A DNA stretch of 20,902 nt from a virus, in the IMG/VR virus record IMGVR_UViG_3300032245_000052, positions 1 through 20,902 of that record; one strand, given 5' to 3'. Positions 2,200 through 19,252 of the stretch are shown piece after piece (positions within the stretch are counted from its first letter, which is position 1; every line of letters starts with the position of its first letter). A program made the translations under genes and the position numbers. Under the pieces are notes generated by a model, which had not been told where the DNA came from, did not search any database, and saw only the letters and a list, made by a program, of their open reading frames with translations.

Positions 2200-2361
2200 A
2201 TGGAACCAGCCAAAGACAACACAACTGGCGAAAGGTATTGCAGCAATTGCGGGTTGACTAAGAAAACAGTCGGCGGTTATTGGAAGATCGCAGCTAACGG
2301 CAAAACAAGACGTTGGCTGTGCGCACCATGTAGCACAAAGCGATTAAATGTCAAAAAATAA
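2200..2361 (+). CDS. Short zinc-ribbon protein, 53 aa
   Basis: This reading frame is under 60 codons. It fills the otherwise empty stretch between the helix-turn-helix gene and the Ref-like gene, and overlaps the latter by 14 bases. The translation has two CxxC knuckles, C14-SN-C17 and C41-AP-C44, separated by 23 residues that include GGYWKIAANGKTRRWLC, as in small zinc ribbons. The start is uncertain. ATG 2200 has only a GAAG two bases away; an in-frame TTG at 2182 would add six residues and overlap the preceding stop. The knuckles suggest nucleic-acid or protein binding. Mu Com, the zinc-binding activator of mom translation, also has two CxxC pairs, but the spacing and gene order differ. 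Confidence 0.65.
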   Translation: MEPAKDNTTGERYCSNCGLTKKTVGGYWKIAANGKTRRWLCAPCSTKRLNVKK

Positions 2362-2620
2362 AAAGCATTACGGCAGAGTTGCTGACTTAGGCTGCATTTT
2401 GTGTAAGAAGCTTAATTTTGAGGGTACGCCTTGTGAAATCCATCATATACGCAGGGCCGGTATTCGTAATGATTCGCCTGTTATTGGTCTTTGCGTTCTT
2501 CACCATAGGGGCCGGTTTGGCGTACATGGTATGGGCCGGAAGGCGTTTGAGAGGTATCACCAAACGACAGAGGAAGAATTATTAGCATGGACGGAGGAAC
2601 TGCTTGGTAGTCATATTTAA
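2348..2620 (+). CDS. ref: Ref-family recombination-enhancement nuclease (HNH-like)
   Basis: This matches the C-terminal nuclease domain of phage P1 Ref, a RecA-dependent HNH-superfamily endonuclease that nicks within D-loops. Visible landmarks are C16-IL-C19, EIHHIR at 30-35, VIGLCVLHHRG at 45-55, and GVHGMGRKAF at 58-67, followed by an acidic helical tail. At 90 aa it is about half of P1 Ref (186 aa), corresponding to the globular nuclease part without the long basic N-terminal arm. Such short versions are common in phages. It overlaps the zinc ribbon upstream and the RusA gene downstream (17 bases). Whether it still needs host RecA is unknown. Confidence 0.85.
   Translation: MSKNKKHYGRVADLGCILCKKLNFEGTPCEIHHIRRAGIRNDSPVIGLCVLHHRGRFGVHGMGRKAFERYHQTTEEELLAWTEELLGSHI
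2593..2606 (+). promoter_or_regulatory. Strong ribosome binding site deciding a TTG start for rusA
   Basis: GGAGG lies at 2593-2597, with 6 bases to TTG 2604, inside the end of the Ref-like gene. There is no ATG or GTG that would keep the conserved RusA N-terminus (NLPLPPSVN), so TTG with this near-perfect site is the likely start. Confidence 0.7.
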
Positions 2621-2969
2621 TTTGCCGTTGCCGCCTAGTGTAAATACTTATTGGCGAGCTTTTAGGGGAAGAACGATATTGTCAAAAGCTGGCAGACAAT
2701 TTAAAGCTGACGTATCTGAACGAGTTATTGAACAAAATGTGCCGAAATTGGGCAATGCAAGGCTTGATGTGACCATTTTTTTGCATCCAAGGGATAAGCG
2801 CAAGACCGACTTAGATAATCGCCTTAAAAGCTGTTTAGACGCTATTCAGGATGCTGGCGTATATGATGACGATGAACAAATTGATAGTTTGACTATTCAT
2901 CGTGGTGCTATAAAATCAGGTGGTGGCGTTGTGGTAGCTATCAGAACTATTGACAAGCCATTAACTTAA
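2604..2969 (+). CDS. rusA: RusA-family Holliday junction resolvase
   Basis: RusA proteins are dimeric, metal-dependent endonucleases that resolve Holliday junctions and branched DNA before packaging. The N-terminus LPLPPSVNTYWR (7-18) is typical of the family. The catalytic pattern D69-x-D71-N-x-x-x-K75 and the later acidic cluster YDDD (87-90) correspond to D70, D72, K76 and D91 of E. coli RusA, shifted by one. The length of 121 aa matches the usual 120. The start is TTG, with GGAGG 6 bases upstream, and the gene overlaps the Ref-like nuclease by 17 bases. The pair therefore looks like a co-expressed recombination/branch-processing unit. All key residues are present, so it should be active. 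Confidence 0.92.
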   Translation: MVVIFNLPLPPSVNTYWRAFRGRTILSKAGRQFKADVSERVIEQNVPKLGNARLDVTIFLHPRDKRKTDLDNRLKSCLDAIQDAGVYDDDEQIDSLTIHRGAIKSGGGVVVAIRTIDKPLT

Positions 2970-3010
2970 GTTAATAATTGTATTCAAATTTCTTTGCAAA
3001 GGAAAAAATC

Positions 3011-3229
3011 ATGGGCAAGATGGACAGTATGAAAGGCGTGAAAAGCACTACTGGTGCAACAGCACCAAAAGGCGCAAGCATGGCTGATATGTCAGGCGAG
3101 CGTAAGGGCAAGATTGTTGGTGGCGTAGCAATGGGTAAAGAAGATGCGGTCGGTATGGACAAAGAGTTTAATACTGGCAAGACTGCTGGCGTTTGCTATA
3201 CACATAGTCGCAATTCTTACGGTCAATGA
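3011..3229 (+). CDS. Hypothetical Gly/Lys/Met-rich protein, 72 aa
   Basis: I chose ATG 3011, which has AAAGGA at about 2998-3003 and 7 bases of spacing, over an upstream TTG at 2978. The product is rich in Gly, Lys, Met and Ala and looks low in hydrophobic core, so it may be largely disordered. There is a single Cys near the end (GVCYTHSRNSYGQ). I recognise no family. It ends in an ATGA overlap with the GroES-like gene, so the two are probably translated together. A role with the co-chaperonin is possible but unsupported beyond proximity. Confidence 0.6.
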   Translation: MGKMDSMKGVKSTTGATAPKGASMADMSGERKGKIVGGVAMGKEDAVGMDKEFNTGKTAGVCYTHSRNSYGQ

Positions 3230-3587: not shown

Positions 3588-3728
3588 ATGCCATTAAAAC
3601 ATAGTAAATCTGACAAGGCTTTTAAAGAAAACATAAAAACTGAAGTAAAGACAAAACCTATCAAACAAGCGGTAGCGATAGCTTATGCAGTAAAACGTGC
3701 AGCAGAGAAACCTAAGAAAAACAAATAG
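3588..3728 (+). CDS. Small basic protein, 46 aa (DUF6496-like)
   Basis: This short ORF fills most of the gap between the GroES-like and small terminase genes. The start MPLKHSKSDKAFKENIKTEV and the later KQAVAIAYAVKRAAEK follow a pattern I have seen in short phage/bacterial proteins (MPLKxGKS...KQAVAIA), associated with DUF6496. ATG 3588 has TTGGAG at 3577-3582 with 5 bases of spacing. An in-frame ATG at 3549 would add 13 residues but lacks family resemblance. The protein is very basic (13 Lys) and amphipathic-helical. It may bind DNA, but the function is unknown. Confidence 0.65.
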   Translation: MPLKHSKSDKAFKENIKTEVKTKPIKQAVAIAYAVKRAAEKPKKNK

Positions 3729-3749
3729 TTAATAGTTAAGGCAATTTAA

Positions 3750-4025
3750 ATGGCAGGTGGCGCACCAATAGGGAACAAGAACGGAACAAAGGGCAAATTG
3801 TTCTATGAGCAGTTGCGCAAGATTTCCGTTCAGCAGCCAGACAGATTAAGGAATGTGGCTGAAACTCTATTCTCCGCCGCTGAGTTAGGCGAGCCTTGGG
3901 CAGTCAAGGAATTGATCGATAGGTTTGATGGCAAAGCAGTTCAGCAAACAGAACTAACCGGCGCAGATGGTGAATCATTGTTGACAGGCATTCAGGTTAC
4001 ATTCGTAAAGCCACAGCATGACTGA
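3750..4025 (+). CDS. Putative small terminase subunit
   Basis: The assignment rests mainly on position: it lies directly upstream of and overlaps the large terminase by 8 bases, where P22-like phages carry the DNA-recognition subunit. The N-terminus MAGGAPIGNKNGTKGKLF is a Gly/Asn/Lys-rich motif common at the start of proteins in this position. The middle (about residues 30-66) is helical, with WAVKELIDRFDGKAVQ resembling the end of TerS-like or DUF5681-like proteins. At 91 aa it is shorter than P22 gp3 (162 aa). The start ATG 3750 has AAGG at about 3738-3741. It could instead be an unrelated small DNA-binding protein. Confidence 0.55.
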   Translation: MAGGAPIGNKNGTKGKLFYEQLRKISVQQPDRLRNVAETLFSAAELGEPWAVKELIDRFDGKAVQQTELTGADGESLLTGIQVTFVKPQHD

Positions 4026-5295
4026 TGTTGTAACTCAAGCTATAGGTAGGGCAGAGTTTCCCGAAAAACTTGCGTGTTTGTTTGAAAAGTCGCGTTATAA
4101 AGTGTTGTTCGGTGGACGCGGCGGGGCAAAATCTTGGGGGGTATCTCGCGCCCTTCTTATCCTAGCGGCACAAAATCCTTTGCGCATACTATGTGCGCGT
4201 GAATTCCAAACTTCCCTAAAAGACTCAGTTCATAAGCTATTGTGCGACCAGATTGTAGAGCTTGGTCTTGATACCTTCTACGATATAACCGCAGCTACCA
4301 TTAGGGGCAAGAACGGTTCAGAGTTTAACTTTGTCGGCCTAAAGAACAACGTTGCCAATGTTAAGTCTTATGAGGGCGTTGACATTTGTTGGGTAGAAGA
4401 AGCACAGACTGTTAGCCGGTCAAGCTGGAATACGCTTATTCCTACCATCCGTAAAGAGCAATCAGAGATTTGGATAACGTTTAACCCTGAGCTAGAAACT
4501 GACGAAACATTTCAGCGGTTTGTGGTTCATGCGCCTGATAACGCTATAGTTCGCAAGATCAACTGGTCTGATAACCCTTGGTTCCCAAAGACCCTGCGCG
4601 AAGAAAAAGACCAGCTAAAAGCTAGGGATGTTGCAGCCTACAATAATGTTTGGGAAGGCTTATGCAGGGTTACGGTTGATGGTGCTATCTTTGCCGAACA
4701 AATGCAGCAAGCAGAGTTTGATGGCAGGATTACCAAAGTTCCGTATGACCCAACCAAACCAGTTCACGCTGTATTCGATCTTGGGTGGGCAGACCATACT
4801 GCAATTTGGTTTGTGCAATATATCGGCATGGAAATAAGATTGATAAGGTTTTTGCAAGACACGCAAAAGACCATGACGCATTACTTAGCTACATTGCAGA
4901 CGTTTGGCTATGTGTACGACACAATCTGGCTACCGCATGATGCCAAAGCCAAGACGCTTGCAGCGGCTGGAATGACCATAGAAGAAATCGTTAGGAACGC
5001 AGGGTATAAAACTAGAGTTTTAGATCGTGTTCCAACTGTTGACAGTATTAATGCTGCGCGTACAATCTTCCCAAAATGTTATTTCGATCGTGAAAATACA
5101 GCCGATGGATTACAATGTCTGCGGCATTATCGTTACGAAGTTGACCCAGATACCAAGCAATTCGGCAGAACGCCGCTACACGATCATTACAGTCATGGCG
5201 CGGATTCCTTTAAATACGTTGCAATGATGGTAAGTGAACCAAGGCGCAGCCAACGCAGACAGATGCAAGCTGCGCCACAGCATTGGATGGCATAA
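4018..5295 (+). CDS. terL: Terminase large subunit (ATPase and nuclease)
   Basis: This is the DNA-packaging motor, which cuts concatemeric DNA and pumps it into the procapsid through the portal. Walker A is GGRGGAKS (32-39), Walker B is VDICWVEEA (121-129) with catalytic Glu, and the coupling motif is ITFNP (153-157). The C-terminal RNase H-like nuclease has D254 in FDLGWADH, HDAK with D308, and D396 in SHGADSFKY. The family is the PBSX/Terminase_3 type. The 425-aa length is normal for this group, and all catalytic residues are present. The gene overlaps the putative small subunit, and its stop is immediately followed by the portal start. The C-terminal tail (after 405) is basic and Gln-rich. 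Confidence 0.96.
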   Translation: MTDVVTQAIGRAEFPEKLACLFEKSRYKVLFGGRGGAKSWGVSRALLILAAQNPLRILCAREFQTSLKDSVHKLLCDQIVELGLDTFYDITAATIRGKNGSEFNFVGLKNNVANVKSYEGVDICWVEEAQTVSRSSWNTLIPTIRKEQSEIWITFNPELETDETFQRFVVHAPDNAIVRKINWSDNPWFPKTLREEKDQLKARDVAAYNNVWEGLCRVTVDGAIFAEQMQQAEFDGRITKVPYDPTKPVHAVFDLGWADHTAIWFVQYIGMEIRLIRFLQDTQKTMTHYLATLQTFGYVYDTIWLPHDAKAKTLAAAGMTIEEIVRNAGYKTRVLDRVPTVDSINAARTIFPKCYFDRENTADGLQCLRHYRYEVDPDTKQFGRTPLHDHYSHGADSFKYVAMMVSEPRRSQRRQMQAAPQHWMA

Positions 5296-12588: not shown

Positions 12589-13191
12589 ATGGGTCAATTA
12601 GTCTTTCAAGCGGCTTTAGGCGGTCAGGTTAATCTGGTCGGGCCAAACACCGCATCTACATATAGCATTAATGTTCCTGCGGTTGCCGGCAACATGGTTA
12701 CTACTGGCGACACAGGCACAGTCACAACGACTATGCTTGCAGCTACTACAGGCAGCGGCAGCGTTGTTTTAGCTACTTCGCCAACGCTTGTAACTCCTGT
12801 TTTGGGAACGCCAACTTCGGGAACATTGTCTAGTTGTACGGTTGACGGAACCAACTCTGTAGGCTTTAGGAATGTTCCTATTAACAGCCAATCAGCAGCT
12901 TATACAACGGTTCTGACTGATTCTGGCAAAGCTATTCTGCATCCATCAACAGACGCAAACGCACGAACATTTACTATTGATAGTAATTCAAACGTGGCTT
13001 ATGCATTAGGAACTGTGCTGACGTTCATCAATATGACTAGCCAAGTGGTTACGATTGCAATCACTAGCGATACGTTGTATTTGGCTGGAACTGGCACTAC
13101 TGGCAGCAGATCATTAGCGCAGTACGGCATGGCAACTGCGATCAAGATGACTTCTACTACTTGGATTATTTCAGGTTCGGGATTGACCTAA
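12589..13191 (+). CDS. Fibre-associated structural protein, 200 aa
   Basis: It has an AAGGAA site over the previous stop and 7 bases of spacing to ATG 12589. The N-terminal 40 residues include NTASTYSINVPAVAGNMVTTG, a motif commonly seen in phage tail fibre proteins. The middle is Thr/Val-rich, with TLVTPVLGTPTSGTL. The C-terminal half has a recognisable fibre-tail pattern: FRNVPINSQSAAYTTVLTDSGKAI, NARTFTIDSNSNV, and IKMTSTTWIISGSGLT at the end. This looks like the head-distal part of a fibre that in other phages is fused to a longer protein. It may be a separate subunit of the fibre above or an attachment-domain relic. Receptor binding is inference. Confidence 0.75.
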   Translation: MGQLVFQAALGGQVNLVGPNTASTYSINVPAVAGNMVTTGDTGTVTTTMLAATTGSGSVVLATSPTLVTPVLGTPTSGTLSSCTVDGTNSVGFRNVPINSQSAAYTTVLTDSGKAILHPSTDANARTFTIDSNSNVAYALGTVLTFINMTSQVVTIAITSDTLYLAGTGTTGSRSLAQYGMATAIKMTSTTWIISGSGLT

Positions 13192-15131
13192 TGAGCGGAA
13201 TTCTTAATTTATTGTTGGGTAGTGCGGCTGGCGTTATAAAAGACGCTTACTTTAACCTTGTCACGTTGTTGCTAAATACAACTGCGACTAATGGCGCACA
13301 AAACAATACATTTTTAGATAGTTCGACTAATAACTTTAGTATCACCAGAAATGGCAATACTACGCAGGGAACGTTTACGCCTTTTAGCCAAACCGGTTGG
13401 AGTAATTACTTAGATGGTTCTGCTTCAACTTATTTATCGTTTCCTTCTAATACTGCGTTTGCATGGGGTACTGGCGCGTACACAGTAGAAGGTTGGGTTT
13501 ATCAAACAGCTAGAGCGACAAATGATGCTCTGTTTTTTGGTTCTGGTGGTAGCGGCGGAGCATTTCTTGCATATATAAAAGGTAACGGTGCTGTAAGTAT
13601 AGATAATTTTGGCGGCTCTACTGTAGCGACAGGTAGTGCTAACGATGTTCCTTTAAATACTTGGGTTCATCTTGCTTATGTAAGAAGCAGCACAGCGTCT
13701 AACGATACTAAAATTTATGTAAATGGCGTTTTAAAAGCTACTGGAACAGACGCAAACAATTGGACGAATTCTTCGTCTCCTATAATTGGAATGCTGACAA
13801 ACAATACTGACTATGCAATTAAAGGTTATATATCAAATTTTCGCGCTGTAAAAGGAACGGCAGTTTATACGTCTGCGTTTACGCCTCCAACAGCTCCATT
13901 GACTGCTATTTCTGGAACGTCAGCACTTACTTGCCAAAGTAATCGTTTTGTTGATAACAGCTCAAACAATTTTACAGTTACTCCTACTGGAACGGCATCC
14001 GTCCAAGCATTTAGCCCATTTGCTCCTACTGCTGCTTACAGCACAAGCTTAGTAGGTGGTAGTGGGTATTTTGATGGTAGTGGGGATTATTTATCTACGT
14101 CTAGCAATGCAGCCTTTGCTTTTGGTTTAAGTGATTTTGAAGTTGACTTCTGGATTTACGCTACAGCATTGCCAGCTTCTGATAACAACATATTAAATCA
14201 AAATTTATCTAGTGGAACTCCGCAATTTTATATTGATAGCACAGGAAAATTACAATACAGAAATGCTTTTATTGGTGCTGTTTTAACTTCAAATACAACA
14301 TTTAAAACCGGTCAATGGTATTACTGCGTTGTTTCTAGGGTTTCATTAACTGCAAGAATGTTTATTAATGGAGTATTAGATACTTCAGGAGCAGACGCTA
14401 ACAATTGGTCTAATACTGCTGGTTGGTATATTTCTAATAACAGCGGAAGTTTTACTGGTTACATATCAAATGTGCGTCTTGTTAATGGTTCAGGAATAAC
14501 TTCATCTACTGTACCAACAGCGCCATTAACGGCCATTACAAATACAGTATTACTTACAAACTTCACCAACGCTGGCATATACGACTCTGCTGCCAAAAAT
14601 GTTAATGAAACTGCGGGTAATGCACAGGTAAGCACAGCAACTGCGCAATTTGGCACAACGTCAATGTACTTTGATGGTACTGGTGATTGTTTGCAATTTC
14701 CAGCTACGCCTAATTTTTTGTTTGGCGGCGATTTTACTATTGAAGGTTGGTTTAACCGTGATAATGGCGCTGACAATTCAATTTTTGTAATGAATACAAG
14801 CGGCGCAAATTATTTTGCGATTAATGTTAATTCTGCTGGTTACAACATTTATTTAAATGGTTCAGGCCCTGCTTTTAGCCCGTCAGTTACTTTATCAAAT
14901 AACACTTGGTATTATTTTGCGTTGGTTAGAAGTGGATCAACAGTCACTCTTTATCACAACGGAAGCAGCGTAGGAACAACAAGTAATTCAAGTGTTTTGG
15001 GTTCATCAAGCGTTGTGGCTTATGTTGGTGGCATAAATGGCGGTTTAAAAGCTTATGTTGATGATTTAAGAATAACTAAATATGCAAGAACTATCACAGC
15101 AAGCCCAACCGCAGCATTCCCGATTCAATAG
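13191..15131 (+). CDS. Triple LamG-domain (lectin-like) tail protein, 646 aa
   Basis: I start at ATG 13191, in a TAATG overlap with the previous stop, not at TTG 13161. Three concanavalin-like LamG domains are visible, each starting with a Y(L/F)DG motif and followed by a G(Y/W)-type strand: NYLDGSAS near 72, YFDGSGDYL at 293, and YFDGTGDCL at 493. The motifs EGWVYQ, DFWIY and EGWFNR recur. Domains one and two share IYVNGVLKATGTDANNW and MFINGVLDTSGADANNW. Such domains bind carbohydrate or surface polymer, so this is a strong adhesin candidate. Local GC is about 35-42% in the 60-base lines I counted, lower than in the head genes. Confidence 0.88.
   Translation: MSGILNLLLGSAAGVIKDAYFNLVTLLLNTTATNGAQNNTFLDSSTNNFSITRNGNTTQGTFTPFSQTGWSNYLDGSASTYLSFPSNTAFAWGTGAYTVEGWVYQTARATNDALFFGSGGSGGAFLAYIKGNGAVSIDNFGGSTVATGSANDVPLNTWVHLAYVRSSTASNDTKIYVNGVLKATGTDANNWTNSSSPIIGMLTNNTDYAIKGYISNFRAVKGTAVYTSAFTPPTAPLTAISGTSALTCQSNRFVDNSSNNFTVTPTGTASVQAFSPFAPTAAYSTSLVGGSGYFDGSGDYLSTSSNAAFAFGLSDFEVDFWIYATALPASDNNILNQNLSSGTPQFYIDSTGKLQYRNAFIGAVLTSNTTFKTGQWYYCVVSRVSLTARMFINGVLDTSGADANNWSNTAGWYISNNSGSFTGYISNVRLVNGSGITSSTVPTAPLTAITNTVLLTNFTNAGIYDSAAKNVNETAGNAQVSTATAQFGTTSMYFDGTGDCLQFPATPNFLFGGDFTIEGWFNRDNGADNSIFVMNTSGANYFAINVNSAGYNIYLNGSGPAFSPSVTLSNNTWYYFALVRSGSTVTLYHNGSSVGTTSNSSVLGSSSVVAYVGGINGGLKAYVDDLRITKYARTITASPTAAFPIQ
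13407..15110 (+). repeat. Three tandem LamG-like domains in one gene
   Basis: Approximate spans are residues 73-240, 293-455 and 493-640. A linker motif FLDSSTNNF (near 42) recurs before domain two as FVDNSSNNF (near 258), and each is followed by F-x-PF. The leader and domain thus appear to have been duplicated together. Confidence 0.7.
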
Positions 15132-15880: not shown

Positions 15881-16864
15881 ATGACAAAGCCGATCGAGAT
15901 CATTAGTGCCGCTTTAAAGGATATTGGTGCGCTCGAAGCTGGCGAAACACCAACACCGGAAGCGTCTGCGGATGCTTTATTCATGCTGAATGACCTAGTA
16001 GATCAATGGTCAAACGAAAATATGATGGTGTTTAATGTCACAGAAATTATCTTTACGCTGATTTCAGGGCAAGTTCAATACACTATCGGCCCTAACCCAA
16101 GCACACAGAACTTTGTTGGTGCGCAATTTACAGGGTCGATAAACAACGATATTTTGACGGTTAGTGGCATTTTGTCGGGTGCTGTTGCGCAGGGACAAAC
16201 TTTGTCAGGCACAGGCGTTAGTGCCGGCACAAAGATCATCAACAACATTACTGGTGCTGGCGGCAACGTAAACGAGCAAGGCACTTATCGCGTCAACATT
16301 CCGCAGACTGTAGCTTCCACAACGCTAACGGCTTATTACCAAAAGCCTTTATATATTGACTCTGCGTTTGTGCGGATTAACACAACGTCAAACGGTCAGC
16401 CTATACAGGGTGGCGGTTTAGATTATCCGGTGGCTATTCTTGCGCTTCAGCAGTACGAACAAATTGGCTTGAAAACGCTAAACGGCCCTTGGCCTAAAGC
16501 TTTGTACTTCAACCCGAACGAGGAATCAGGCAACCTGTTTGTTTGGCCTAATCCTGCGCAAGGTGAATTGCACATGTTTGCCAATACGATTTTTAATCGT
16601 TTTTCTACGGTTCAAGATGATTTCGTATTGCCGCAAGGCTACACAATGGCTTTGCGTTGGTGCTTGGCTGAACGACTAATGCCTATGTACGGCAAGAACT
16701 CACAAACACAGATTGCGATGATTACGCAGTTTGCGGCACAGGCTAAATCTACGCTCAAACGAACAAATATGTCGCCATTGCAGACTGCTAATTATCCAAG
16801 TTCGTTGATGGTCAGCAAGCAAAAGGATGCTGGTTGGATTCTTACTGGCGGCTTTTTTAATTAA
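15881..16864 (+). CDS. P22 gp4-like tail accessory/head-completion protein
   Basis: The start (EIISAALKDIGALEAGETPTPE, 6-27) and MLNDLVDQWSNENMMVF (35-51) are typical of the P22 gp4-like family, which binds the portal after packaging and starts tail assembly. Later parts fit too: PVAILALQQYEQIGL, KALYFNP, NLFVWPNP, and ALRWCLAERL. P22 gp4 is 166 aa; this is 327. The excess includes an inserted Gly/Thr-rich beta module at about residues 83-152 that recurs in the gp10-like protein. The Shine-Dalgarno sequence is GAGG at 15869-15872. The muramidase activity reported for some gp4 proteins is not evident from motifs here. Confidence 0.8.
   Translation: MTKPIEIISAALKDIGALEAGETPTPEASADALFMLNDLVDQWSNENMMVFNVTEIIFTLISGQVQYTIGPNPSTQNFVGAQFTGSINNDILTVSGILSGAVAQGQTLSGTGVSAGTKIINNITGAGGNVNEQGTYRVNIPQTVASTTLTAYYQKPLYIDSAFVRINTTSNGQPIQGGGLDYPVAILALQQYEQIGLKTLNGPWPKALYFNPNEESGNLFVWPNPAQGELHMFANTIFNRFSTVQDDFVLPQGYTMALRWCLAERLMPMYGKNSQTQIAMITQFAAQAKSTLKRTNMSPLQTANYPSSLMVSKQKDAGWILTGGFFN
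16127..16336 (+). repeat. Shared beta module, copy in gp4-like protein
   Basis: Residues 83-152 carry FTGSINNDILTVSG, GQTLSGTGVSAGTKII and GTYRVNIPQTV. The same order and spacing appear in the gp10-like protein (FTGSISGTTLTVTN ... GVGVTSETVI ... GTYTVNISQTV). Confidence 0.75.
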
Positions 16865-16873
16865 GGGTAAGCC

Positions 16874-19252
16874 ATGCCTGACTTCGGTTTTGTTGGCCCT
16901 TCTTATGAAGCACCTTCGATCTATCAAGATGCGCAGGAATGTATCAATTGGCGACCTGAGATTGACCCGCTAAAGCAGCCTGGTCAGCGTGGTGTGGTTG
17001 CGCTATATCCAACGCCAGGCTTAACTACCAAGGCTGTTTTAAGTGCTTTGGGCGAGGTTCGTGGCGTTCGCACGTTGTCCGGTGGCGAGTACATGATCGC
17101 TGTCTGCGGTGCGTCTGTTTACATTCTTACCAGTAACCTAACGCCTAGCATTATTGGTCAGCTAAACACTTCCACAGGAATTGTTGGCATTACTGACAAC
17201 GGTCAGAATGTCTATATTGTTGACGGTGCTTATCGTTATACATGGCGCATTTCTACGCCTAACACAGCTATTTTCACCGGCTCTATATCTGGCACGACCC
17301 TTACCGTTACAAACAAATCTAGCGGCACAATTGGCGTTGGTCAGGTTGTTTTCGGCGTTGGCGTTACTAGCGAAACTGTTATTACTGCGTTGGGGTCAGG
17401 TTCTGGTGGTGCTGGAACTTATACGGTCAACATTTCGCAAACAGTAACAGCGCGTGATATGAATACTGCGGCTGTGGCTGCAACCCTGACAGGTTCTATT
17501 TCTAGCGGCGTTAATTCCGTAACCATTACCAACCAAGGCAGTAGCTATTTAAACCCAATAGTTAGCTTTGGCACGTTATGGACTGCGACAACCGTTGTAA
17601 CTACTGGTCAGCAAATTTATTACGGTGCAAATCTATATACGGTTTCAACAGGTGGCACGACAGGTTCAACCGCTCCAACACATACAAGCGGTTCGGCATC
17701 TAATGGAACGTCAACGCTTACTTATGCCGGCGTTGTGGCTACCGGAGTTCCAACGCAGATCAGCGGCAAGATTACGGAAGTAACCATCACAAACAGGGGT
17801 TCTGGCTACACTACAGCCCCTACAGTCACGTTTGCTGACAGCCTTGGTGGTTCTGGTTCAGGCGCAGCGGGAACGGCTGTATTGGTCGCTAATTCGCTTG
17901 CTGTAACTGCTATTACTGGCACGTTATATTTAGGCCAAACTATCCAAGGCGCGGGTATTACGCCTAACACAATCATTACTGCGTTTGGTAGCGGTACAGG
18001 CGGGGTTGGAACGTATGACGTAAATTTTACGCAAGCAGTCGGCTCTGAAAGTATGTACGCGCTGAACTGGACGGTTTTGCCTTCTACGGACGGAGCATTT
18101 AGCGGCGGCAATACGGTTGGCACTTACGACAATTACTTTGTTTACAACAACCCAAACACGCAGCAATTTGGTGCTTCTGACCTTCTGTCCCCAATTTCTA
18201 ATGGCTTAAGCTTTGGCAGCAAAGACGGTTCGCCCGATGATCTTGTCGCTTTAATTATTGACCACCGCGAAATTTATTTGTTAGGTGAAACGTCTAGTGA
18301 AGTATGGGTTGACGTTGGTGCTACGCCATTTCCGTTTCAACGAATCCCAGGCACTTCTACGCAGCATGGTTGTGCGGCTAAGTTCTCGCTTGCAAGACTA
18401 GGCAATTCATTTGCTTATGTAAGCAGAAACAATCGCGGTCAGGGTCAAGTTATGCAAATGGATGGTTACAAGCCGACCCGCATATCAACTCACGCTGTAG
18501 AACAATCGCTGGTTAATCAGTACATTGACGATGCAATAGCTTGGACTTACCAATTAGAAGGCCATGAATGCTACGTTGTGACGTTCCCAACTATCGGCAT
18601 TACTTGGTCTTATGACAATGCATCGTCAATGTGGCACAAGATGCTTTATTTCAATAATGATGGCACTTATTCAAGGCATCGAGGCCAATGCGCTACATTG
18701 TTTCAGGGCATGGTTTTGGTTGGAGATTACGAAAACGGCAAGATATACGAATTAGATTCTGAAGCTTATACGGATGATGGTCAGACGATACGTCGTGCGC
18801 GTCGTGCGCCGCATTTGGTTGCTGATTTCCAACGTGAATATTTTGACGAGTTACAGATACAATTTCAGCCTGGCGTTGGTTTTACAGGGTTATCGATAAC
18901 CGATGGCACGTTAATACCAGGCGCGGTTTACCTTGGTGATAGCTACACAATCGCATCAACGCAAACTTTAACTATTCCGTTAGATGGCATCTACGTTATT
19001 GGAACGTCAACAACATTGACAGGAACCACAACCAATAACCCACAGGCAATGCTGCGCTGGTCAAATGATGGTGGTTCAACGTGGTCAAAAGAGTATTGGG
19101 TAAGTATTGGTTCGGTTGGTCGGTTTAAGAATCGTGCTATTTGGCGGCGTTTGGGCATGGCGCGTGATCGCATTTTTGAGGTTGCTGTGACTGACCCTGT
19201 TTGGGCTGTAATTGTGTCTGCAAACTTGAAATCTTCGGCTGGGGACAACTAA
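16874..19252 (+). CDS. P22 gp10-like tail hub/DNA stabilization protein with inserted modules
   Basis: gp10 of P22 forms the tail hub that plugs the filled head. The N-terminal region (FVGPSYEAPSIYQDAQECIN, YPTPGLTT, then the repeated short strands VRGVRTLSGGEYMIAV) and the C-terminal half (SYDNASSMWHKMLYF, EYWVSIGSVGRFKNRAIW, WRRLGMARDRIFEVAV) fit this family. P22 gp10 is 472 aa, and this is 792. The surplus is mostly a block at about residues 134-397, placed between RYTWRISTPN and LNWTVLP. The block holds two copies of the module also seen in the gp4-like protein, a module with YGANLYTVSTGG-TAPTHTSG, and two VTITNxGSxY repeats. It is translated directly after the gp4-like gene. Confidence 0.85.
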   Translation: MPDFGFVGPSYEAPSIYQDAQECINWRPEIDPLKQPGQRGVVALYPTPGLTTKAVLSALGEVRGVRTLSGGEYMIAVCGASVYILTSNLTPSIIGQLNTSTGIVGITDNGQNVYIVDGAYRYTWRISTPNTAIFTGSISGTTLTVTNKSSGTIGVGQVVFGVGVTSETVITALGSGSGGAGTYTVNISQTVTARDMNTAAVAATLTGSISSGVNSVTITNQGSSYLNPIVSFGTLWTATTVVTTGQQIYYGANLYTVSTGGTTGSTAPTHTSGSASNGTSTLTYAGVVATGVPTQISGKITEVTITNRGSGYTTAPTVTFADSLGGSGSGAAGTAVLVANSLAVTAITGTLYLGQTIQGAGITPNTIITAFGSGTGGVGTYDVNFTQAVGSESMYALNWTVLPSTDGAFSGGNTVGTYDNYFVYNNPNTQQFGASDLLSPISNGLSFGSKDGSPDDLVALIIDHREIYLLGETSSEVWVDVGATPFPFQRIPGTSTQHGCAAKFSLARLGNSFAYVSRNNRGQGQVMQMDGYKPTRISTHAVEQSLVNQYIDDAIAWTYQLEGHECYVVTFPTIGITWSYDNASSMWHKMLYFNNDGTYSRHRGQCATLFQGMVLVGDYENGKIYELDSEAYTDDGQTIRRARRAPHLVADFQREYFDELQIQFQPGVGFTGLSITDGTLIPGAVYLGDSYTIASTQTLTIPLDGIYVIGTSTTLTGTTTNNPQAMLRWSNDGGSTWSKEYWVSIGSVGRFKNRAIWRRLGMARDRIFEVAVTDPVWAVIVSANLKSSAGDN
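17273..17467 (+). repeat. Shared beta module, first copy in gp10-like protein
   Basis: Residues 134-198: FTGSISGTTLTVTN, GQVVFGVGVTSETVI, GSGSGGAGTYTVNISQTV. It matches the gp4-like insert in order and spacing. Confidence 0.75.
17519..17833 (+). repeat. VTITN-GS-Y beta repeats flanking a binding-module-like segment
   Basis: VTITNQGSSY (residues 216-225) and VTITNRGSGY (303-312) are near-identical strand-turn motifs. Between them (235-286) is WTATTVVTTGQQIYYGANLYTVSTGG and TAPTHTSG, resembling a small carbohydrate-binding module found in many phage fibres. Confidence 0.55.
17909..18064 (+). repeat. Shared beta module, second partial copy in gp10-like protein
   Basis: Residues about 346-397: AITGTLYLGQTIQGAGITPN, TAFGSGTGGVGTYDVNFTQAV. 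It lacks a clear FTGSIS start, but otherwise repeats the first copy. Confidence 0.65.

Follow-up and report, generated by a model that had tools for sequence, protein, structure and literature searches.

The stretch of DNA analysed here, referred to below as the window, is the whole of IMG/VR virus record IMGVR_UViG_3300032245_000052 (20,902 bases), from an uncultured short-tailed phage, which encodes a P22-type head module with a coat protein that matches the PF11651 profile, then virion genes, and then a consecutive pair of genes for two ring proteins of a P22-type neck. The first gene of the pair (positions 15881–16864; both genes of the pair, with the module copies and nest inside them, lie on the + strand) encodes a gp4-like head-to-tail adaptor of 327 amino acids (aa), which belongs to the P22 gp4/SU10_adaptor group both by a curated profile (PF24175, 28.5 bits against a cut-off of 27) and by the helix-bundle fold of an adaptor (Z 15 for its model against P22 gp4), and which also matches phrog_12985 (E 5.7e-41). 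The second gene (16874–19252) encodes a gp10-like nozzle or head-closure (Hc3) protein of 792 aa, assigned to the P22 gp10 group by its profile match (phrog_578, E 1.2e-92) together with a β-propeller core (Z 38.7 against P22 gp10, 8eap_D). A β module of ∼67 residues occurs three times in the window, once in the adaptor and twice in the gp10-like protein, and in both proteins it is an insertion.

The copy in gp4 spans residues 80–152 (16118–16336). In gp10, copy a covers residues 131–200 (17264–17473) and is followed directly by copy b, which is split into a first part at residues 201–213 (17474–17512) and a second part at residues 340–397 (17891–18064). The segments were compared by pairwise local alignment, with each score set against 500 composition-preserving shuffles, which gave 118 for gp4 and gp10a (z 11.1), 80 for gp4 and gp10b (z 7.9) and 133 for gp10a and gp10b (z 15.3). 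When the window was searched with a profile of 52 module copies, from which its own gp10b copy was absent, exactly three matches were returned, with E values of 1.2e-27 (gp10a), 4.0e-26 (gp4) and 2.8e-19 (gp10b, second part). These scores bear out the proposal of an earlier note, made from the sequence, that the two proteins carry the same module. The note had also described the third copy as partial, whereas copy b is in fact complete, its first strand (AATLTGSIS, residues 201–213) being separated from residues 340–397 by a nested insert.

In relatives of both genes that lack the module, the sequence is continuous across the insertion site. For gp4, adaptors of 234–238 aa (Rhodoferax phage P26218 L081, L085–L088) read YTIGP...RPxxIDxA without the ∼75–80 residues found in the window. 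For gp10, NRYTLDVST-NTFTTLPNTDGAW of L082 aligns with YRYTWRISTP...(∼268 aa)...NWTVLPSTDGAFSG of the window, with flanks that are ∼58–63% identical, and the complete insert amounts to ∼268 residues (131–398; 17264–18067) versus zero in L082 and L081. The modules are insertions into two consecutive ring proteins, as had been proposed, and not native parts of either. It had further been claimed that each protein is much longer than its P22 counterpart; the excess of gp4 is partly native, since the module accounts for only ∼75–80 residues and the relatives of 234–238 aa already have a β domain that P22 gp4 does not have. For these reasons it is extremely improbable that the three segments are native core of gp4 and gp10, which the empty sites refute, or Gly/Ser/Thr-rich β stretches that resemble each other by chance: the module is indeed Gly/Thr-rich and its motifs are short, but z values of 8–15 against shuffles of the same composition and profile E values down to 1e-27 speak against such a likeness.

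Among the relatives, the adaptor of the isolated Xanthomonas phage PBR31 (L084:4486–5436) has an insert at the gp4 site that resembles a highly diverged module and falls below the profile threshold; the gp10 of this phage is without the module. Several relatives (L082, L002, L003, L012, L015) have ∼0.5–1.8 kb of additional sequence separating gp4 from gp10, and in L082 (5535–6113) this gap contains an annotated endonuclease.

The split of copy b can be followed in other genomes. In 72 relatives copy b is full and uninterrupted, in tandem with copy a, and the first part in the window aligns with the first strand of these uninterrupted copies. In the window, the first hairpin of copy b encloses a nest of about 126–127 residues made up of other modules (residues 214–339, 17513–17890), with two GSGYxxAPTVTF-type units around a YYGANLYTV/TAPTHTSG unit. 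A nest like this one is found in 6 loci, the window and five others, which make up the window lineage, and the same hairpin carries other inserts, of 88 residues in 13 loci and of 174 residues in one. One unit of the nest (residues ∼228–286, 17555–17731) resembles part of the receptor-binding domain of a cyanophage tailspike (7eea_A, phmmer E 6.7e-5), and phrog_6005 and phrog_5342 match gp10 at residues 232–286.

Structures of both proteins were predicted with AlphaFold2 from alignments of the window proteins and their IMG/VR relatives, with a mean predicted local distance difference test (pLDDT) score of 83.6 for gp4 and 81.6 for gp10. The three copies are predicted with the same strand order (a long hairpin, two short strands and a second long hairpin) at a pLDDT of ∼90. 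The strands lie at residues 80–99, 107–109, 118–122 and 134–152 in gp4 (mostly ∼90) and at 131–150, 157–161, 168–173 and 181–200 in gp10 copy a (∼92), while the first part of copy b contributes a strand at 203–210 and its second part is predicted at ∼92. Most of the nest scores below 50. In the comparison of the gp4 model with P22 gp4 chains, Z is 14–15 over 111–126 residues; with the adaptors of N4, A4 and Moo19 the model aligns over a greater length, ∼200–216 residues, which fits a β domain that is missing from P22. The gp10 model aligns with 449 of the 471 residues of P22 gp10 and scores Z 35–39 across the homologues of P22, Sf6, Pan3 and Pam1. Since the cores match P22 gp4 and gp10, the module copies and the nest are extra to them. 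The gp4 module lies inside the adaptor β domain, and by the strand order of the model the gp10 insert precedes the final strand of the second complete blade of the propeller. A second, C-terminal insertion in the window gp10 (residues 672–718; 18887–19027) varies in length among relatives and is predicted with low confidence.

The order in which the insertions were gained can be read from a survey of 250 records, of which 82 lack the module in both proteins, 42 carry it in gp4 only (one copy or two) and ∼110 carry it in both. Four loci appeared to have it in gp10 only (L146, L154, L160, L168), but in these the gp4 gene is cut at the locus edge. In a tree built from the gp10 core without the insert, lineages with a gp4 module form one clade (Shimodaira–Hasegawa-like approximate likelihood ratio test, SH-aLRT, 99), and lineages with gp10 modules form one clade (95) inside it. 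The gp4 insertion arose once, and the gp10 pair was gained once within that clade. This nesting of one clade within the other gives the order of events as gp4 first, then the gp10 pair, and then the nests and extra copies. The gp4 copy has been retained, with conserved sequence, in nearly every complete locus of this large and diverse clade, and no complete gp10 protein with modules has fewer than two of them, every single-copy gp10 being truncated.

Where the copies themselves came from is less readily traced. In the module tree, gp10a (92/88) and gp10b (83/91) each form a single group and the first or single gp4 copies fall largely together, while second gp4 copies fall among the modules of LamG, fibre and other proteins and not with their neighbouring copy, a pattern that suggests import from a pool. 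Identity between copies within a genome equals that between genomes (0.484 versus 0.481, 0.461 versus 0.457, 0.501 versus 0.498), so that nothing points to copying still under way in the window lineage; this comparison was also how concerted evolution between module sites was looked for, and none was found. The earlier note had seen a hint of a module spreading within the virion; here this would mean duplication of the gp4 copy into gp10 followed by tandem duplication, and we regard it as rather doubtful. In its favour, the gp10 modules are confined to a clade that already bore the gp4 module, and approximately unbiased (AU) tests reject neither a joint clade of gp10a and gp10b (p 0.19) nor one of single or N-terminal gp4 copies with gp10a and gp10b (p 0.19). 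Copying of this kind is seen in another phage, L307, where the module DNA of a phrog_2048 gene (2360–3217) and a gpJ-like gene (3725–5194) is 81% identical, with a ∼44-base stretch apparently identical, and the two modules are sisters in the tree (99/88); judged by their DNA, this pair is a clear case of recent in-genome copying. For the window, however, the gp10a, gp10b and gp4 copies are separate in the best tree, second gp4 copies group with the modules of other proteins, and copies within a genome are no more alike than copies between genomes. As the alignment has only 67 columns and the AU tests of joint origins give p 0.19–0.26, trees cannot settle the origin of the copies.

Phages both related and unrelated have the module inserted in many other tail proteins as well. 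The module interrupts DUF3383/phrog_205 sheath-like proteins, Baseplate_J proteins (phrog_6), a PF23961 neck terminator and a phrog_2048 tail protein, and it likewise interrupts a gpJ-like protein, a tailspike, tail fibres, a LamG protein and another adaptor (L359), the adaptor family phrog_637 being among the hosts. In phrog_3287 proteins it is found at four different positions; hhalign gave no link between these proteins and gp10, and we do not count them as gp10 homologues. Module pairs in nearby tail genes recur (L307, L338, L422), and in two of these loci (L338:2497–5313 and L422:2794–5519) the module sits in a neck terminator (PF23961 in L338) and in the adjacent DUF3383 gene, an arrangement that mirrors the gp4/gp10 pair within another type of tail. 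A LamG protein in L330 (2318–4561; also in L365) resembles that of the window (13161–15131) and has a module near its N-terminus (residues 62–128), which the window LamG protein is without. A few module copies also come from bacterial genomes (L339, L340, L343, L344), where the proteins that carry them are rich in repeats and possibly cellular. In-frame insertion in so many genes could be taken to point to a DNA-level mobile element or an intein-like insertion, but this is very improbable: the identity of module DNA from different host genes does not usually exceed ∼74% along the module, the L307 pair excepted, and profile searches and inspection revealed no recognisable splicing or nuclease domain in the ∼67 residues. 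A search by DNA identity for recent mobility of the module likewise showed none outside L307. Given this low DNA identity between hosts, the module behaves as a promiscuous protein domain and not as a DNA element.

The module had no Pfam or NCBIfam match above cut-off, and the 52-row profile had no match in the PDB up to E 10. With a 7-row module profile, the PDB yielded nothing beyond CD3 epsilon (E 1) and EF-Tu domain 2 (E 4.7), and the model segment containing the gp4 module (residues 57–152) matched eEFSec with a structural Z of 7.0; the eEFSec match hints at a fold like that of EF-Tu domain 2, which was not adopted, since the 52-row profile found nothing. Assignment to an immunoglobulin (Ig) profile family was also set aside, as the two Big_6 matches reached 14.9 and 18.3 bits against a cut-off of 27.6 and the remaining copies had no Ig match. 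The closest structural likeness is to a virion chain of Arthrobacter phage Bridgette (8eci_1), which superposes on the gp4 module (model residues 78–154) with Z 7.2 and a root-mean-square deviation of 2.3 over 66 residues at 23% identity, and which Foldseek matches with probability 1.00 and E 0.031. This Z is within the range of common arrangements and module profiles gave no sequence match, so we treat 8eci_1 as a lead and not as an assignment. Foldseek against predicted viral structures returned adaptor-like proteins of uncultured phages, none of which gave the module a function. Two PHROG families, phrog_21413 (unknown function) and phrog_38233 (tail fibre protein), include the module as one segment of their profiles and match all tested hosts; unlike the module they are whole-protein families, and no function for the module follows from them. 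A tblastn search of a phage collection with the module consensus gave no match, but the low-complexity filter probably masks the query, so that this is no evidence of absence. The module is apparently an undescribed, unnamed family.

Taking these observations together, we lean towards the reading that the module is a promiscuous β domain placed in exposed hairpins of virion proteins, where it leaves the cores intact and offers outward, weak and replaceable contact surfaces. The folded module would enter in frame at exposed hairpins of the ring proteins without harm to their cores, the gp4 copy sitting in the fibre-dock-type β domain of the adaptor and the tandem gp10 pair at the outer edge of a propeller blade. 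In P22, the gp4 adaptor is a dodecamer and gp10 is a hexamer; if this stoichiometry holds here, up to 12 gp4 and 12 gp10 knobs would stand round the outside of the neck, and they would not touch the DNA channel. By gene order, the window adaptor would likewise be a ring placed between portal and nozzle. Most likely they would act as weak, replaceable contacts to host-surface glycans and/or fibres, like the Ig-like decorations of other phages. That the copies in both rings probably face outward is reasoned from phage SU10, whose nozzle protein gp17 has four Ig-like domains inserted between propeller blades 2 and 3, with blades 1–3 pointing away from the tail axis, and from the adaptor β domain, which is the fibre-dock region in T7 and SU10 and which P22 and Sf6 are without (PMC9509320). 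Several points weigh against this reading. The exterior position and the contacts are deduced from monomer models only, and the SU10-like position of the insertion from strand order only; the module had no significant match to known glycan-binding families, only the nested unit showing a likeness to part of a tailspike receptor-binding domain; hhalign against single SU10 sequences (the nozzle gp17 and the adaptor gp11) gave no significant match; and the strong conservation of the gp4 copy could mean a structural role.

The main rival reading is that the modules hold fibres or tailspikes in place and make the nozzle stiffer or longer, as SU10 Ig-like domains and fibre-dock loops do, and do not bind the host. 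We consider it possible, though on the unlikely side. It would fit the place of the gp4 copy, in a domain corresponding to the fibre dock that P22 and Sf6 lack, the place of the gp10 pair, which by strand order is near the SU10 nozzle-domain insertion site, and the constant presence of at least two copies in complete gp10 proteins, where the truncation of all single-copy cases indicates that copy number is not free. Yet relatives without a gp10 module (L082, L083 and ∼40 IMG/VR loci) keep the gene pair, so bracing by the gp10 module is not required, and the widely varying nested inserts are easier to reconcile with a variable surface that is exposed than with a fixed joint. The variety of host proteins and sites, and of nests at one point, would also be expected if exposed hairpins simply tolerated any folded insert and the module persisted without function. 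Such near-neutral accretion is unlikely, as the gp4 copy is kept with conserved sequence in nearly all complete loci of its clade and the gp10 copies have likewise been kept since their single gain.

Beyond the reading of weak outward contacts, we tentatively suggest, as an idea that may well prove wrong, that the module is a hitchhiker that settles in the exposed hairpins of proteins of the neck, tail and baseplate in phages with different tail types, that it tends to build up in neighbouring genes, and that copies already in place act as landing sites for further modules. As a gp10 pair in six subunits equals in number one module in each of 12 gp4 subunits, a two-tier outer collar may form. 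The adaptor and the nozzle are usually seen as conserved core, and here one small module enters them repeatedly, an example of phages attaching ready-made parts to their most conserved machinery. Sister lineages with an empty site allow the gain, timing and cost of decorating a DNA-delivery machine to be followed, and a profile for the module would help to annotate better the many proteins of environmental phages that at present are labelled hypothetical.

Compared with known systems, the window shares its gene order, core folds and PF11651 coat protein with P22 and differs in that P22 gp4 and gp10 have no modules, P22 gp4 lacking the very β domain that hosts the gp4 copy. SU10 is alike in having extra β domains in a gp10-type propeller and in the adaptor β domain, and by strand order the window insert may lie near the same border of blades 2 and 3; the SU10 nozzle insert, in contrast, consists of four Ig-like domains, whereas the window reuses one small module in both rings. 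Insertion of small domains into virion proteins is already known: Ig-like domains on phage virions (Hoc and others) are described as promiscuous (Fraser et al. 2006, as cited in PMC10385173), and neck passage structures are among the recent shuffling events in phage domain mosaicism (Smug et al. 2023, PMC10684548). The module resembles these cases in that small domains are common to unrelated virion proteins. Unlike the Ig-like decorations, it is not assigned to Ig, lies inside core ring proteins and not at their termini, and has a nest within one copy, and what is new here is the module family itself, its place inside both rings, its stepwise gain and its nesting.

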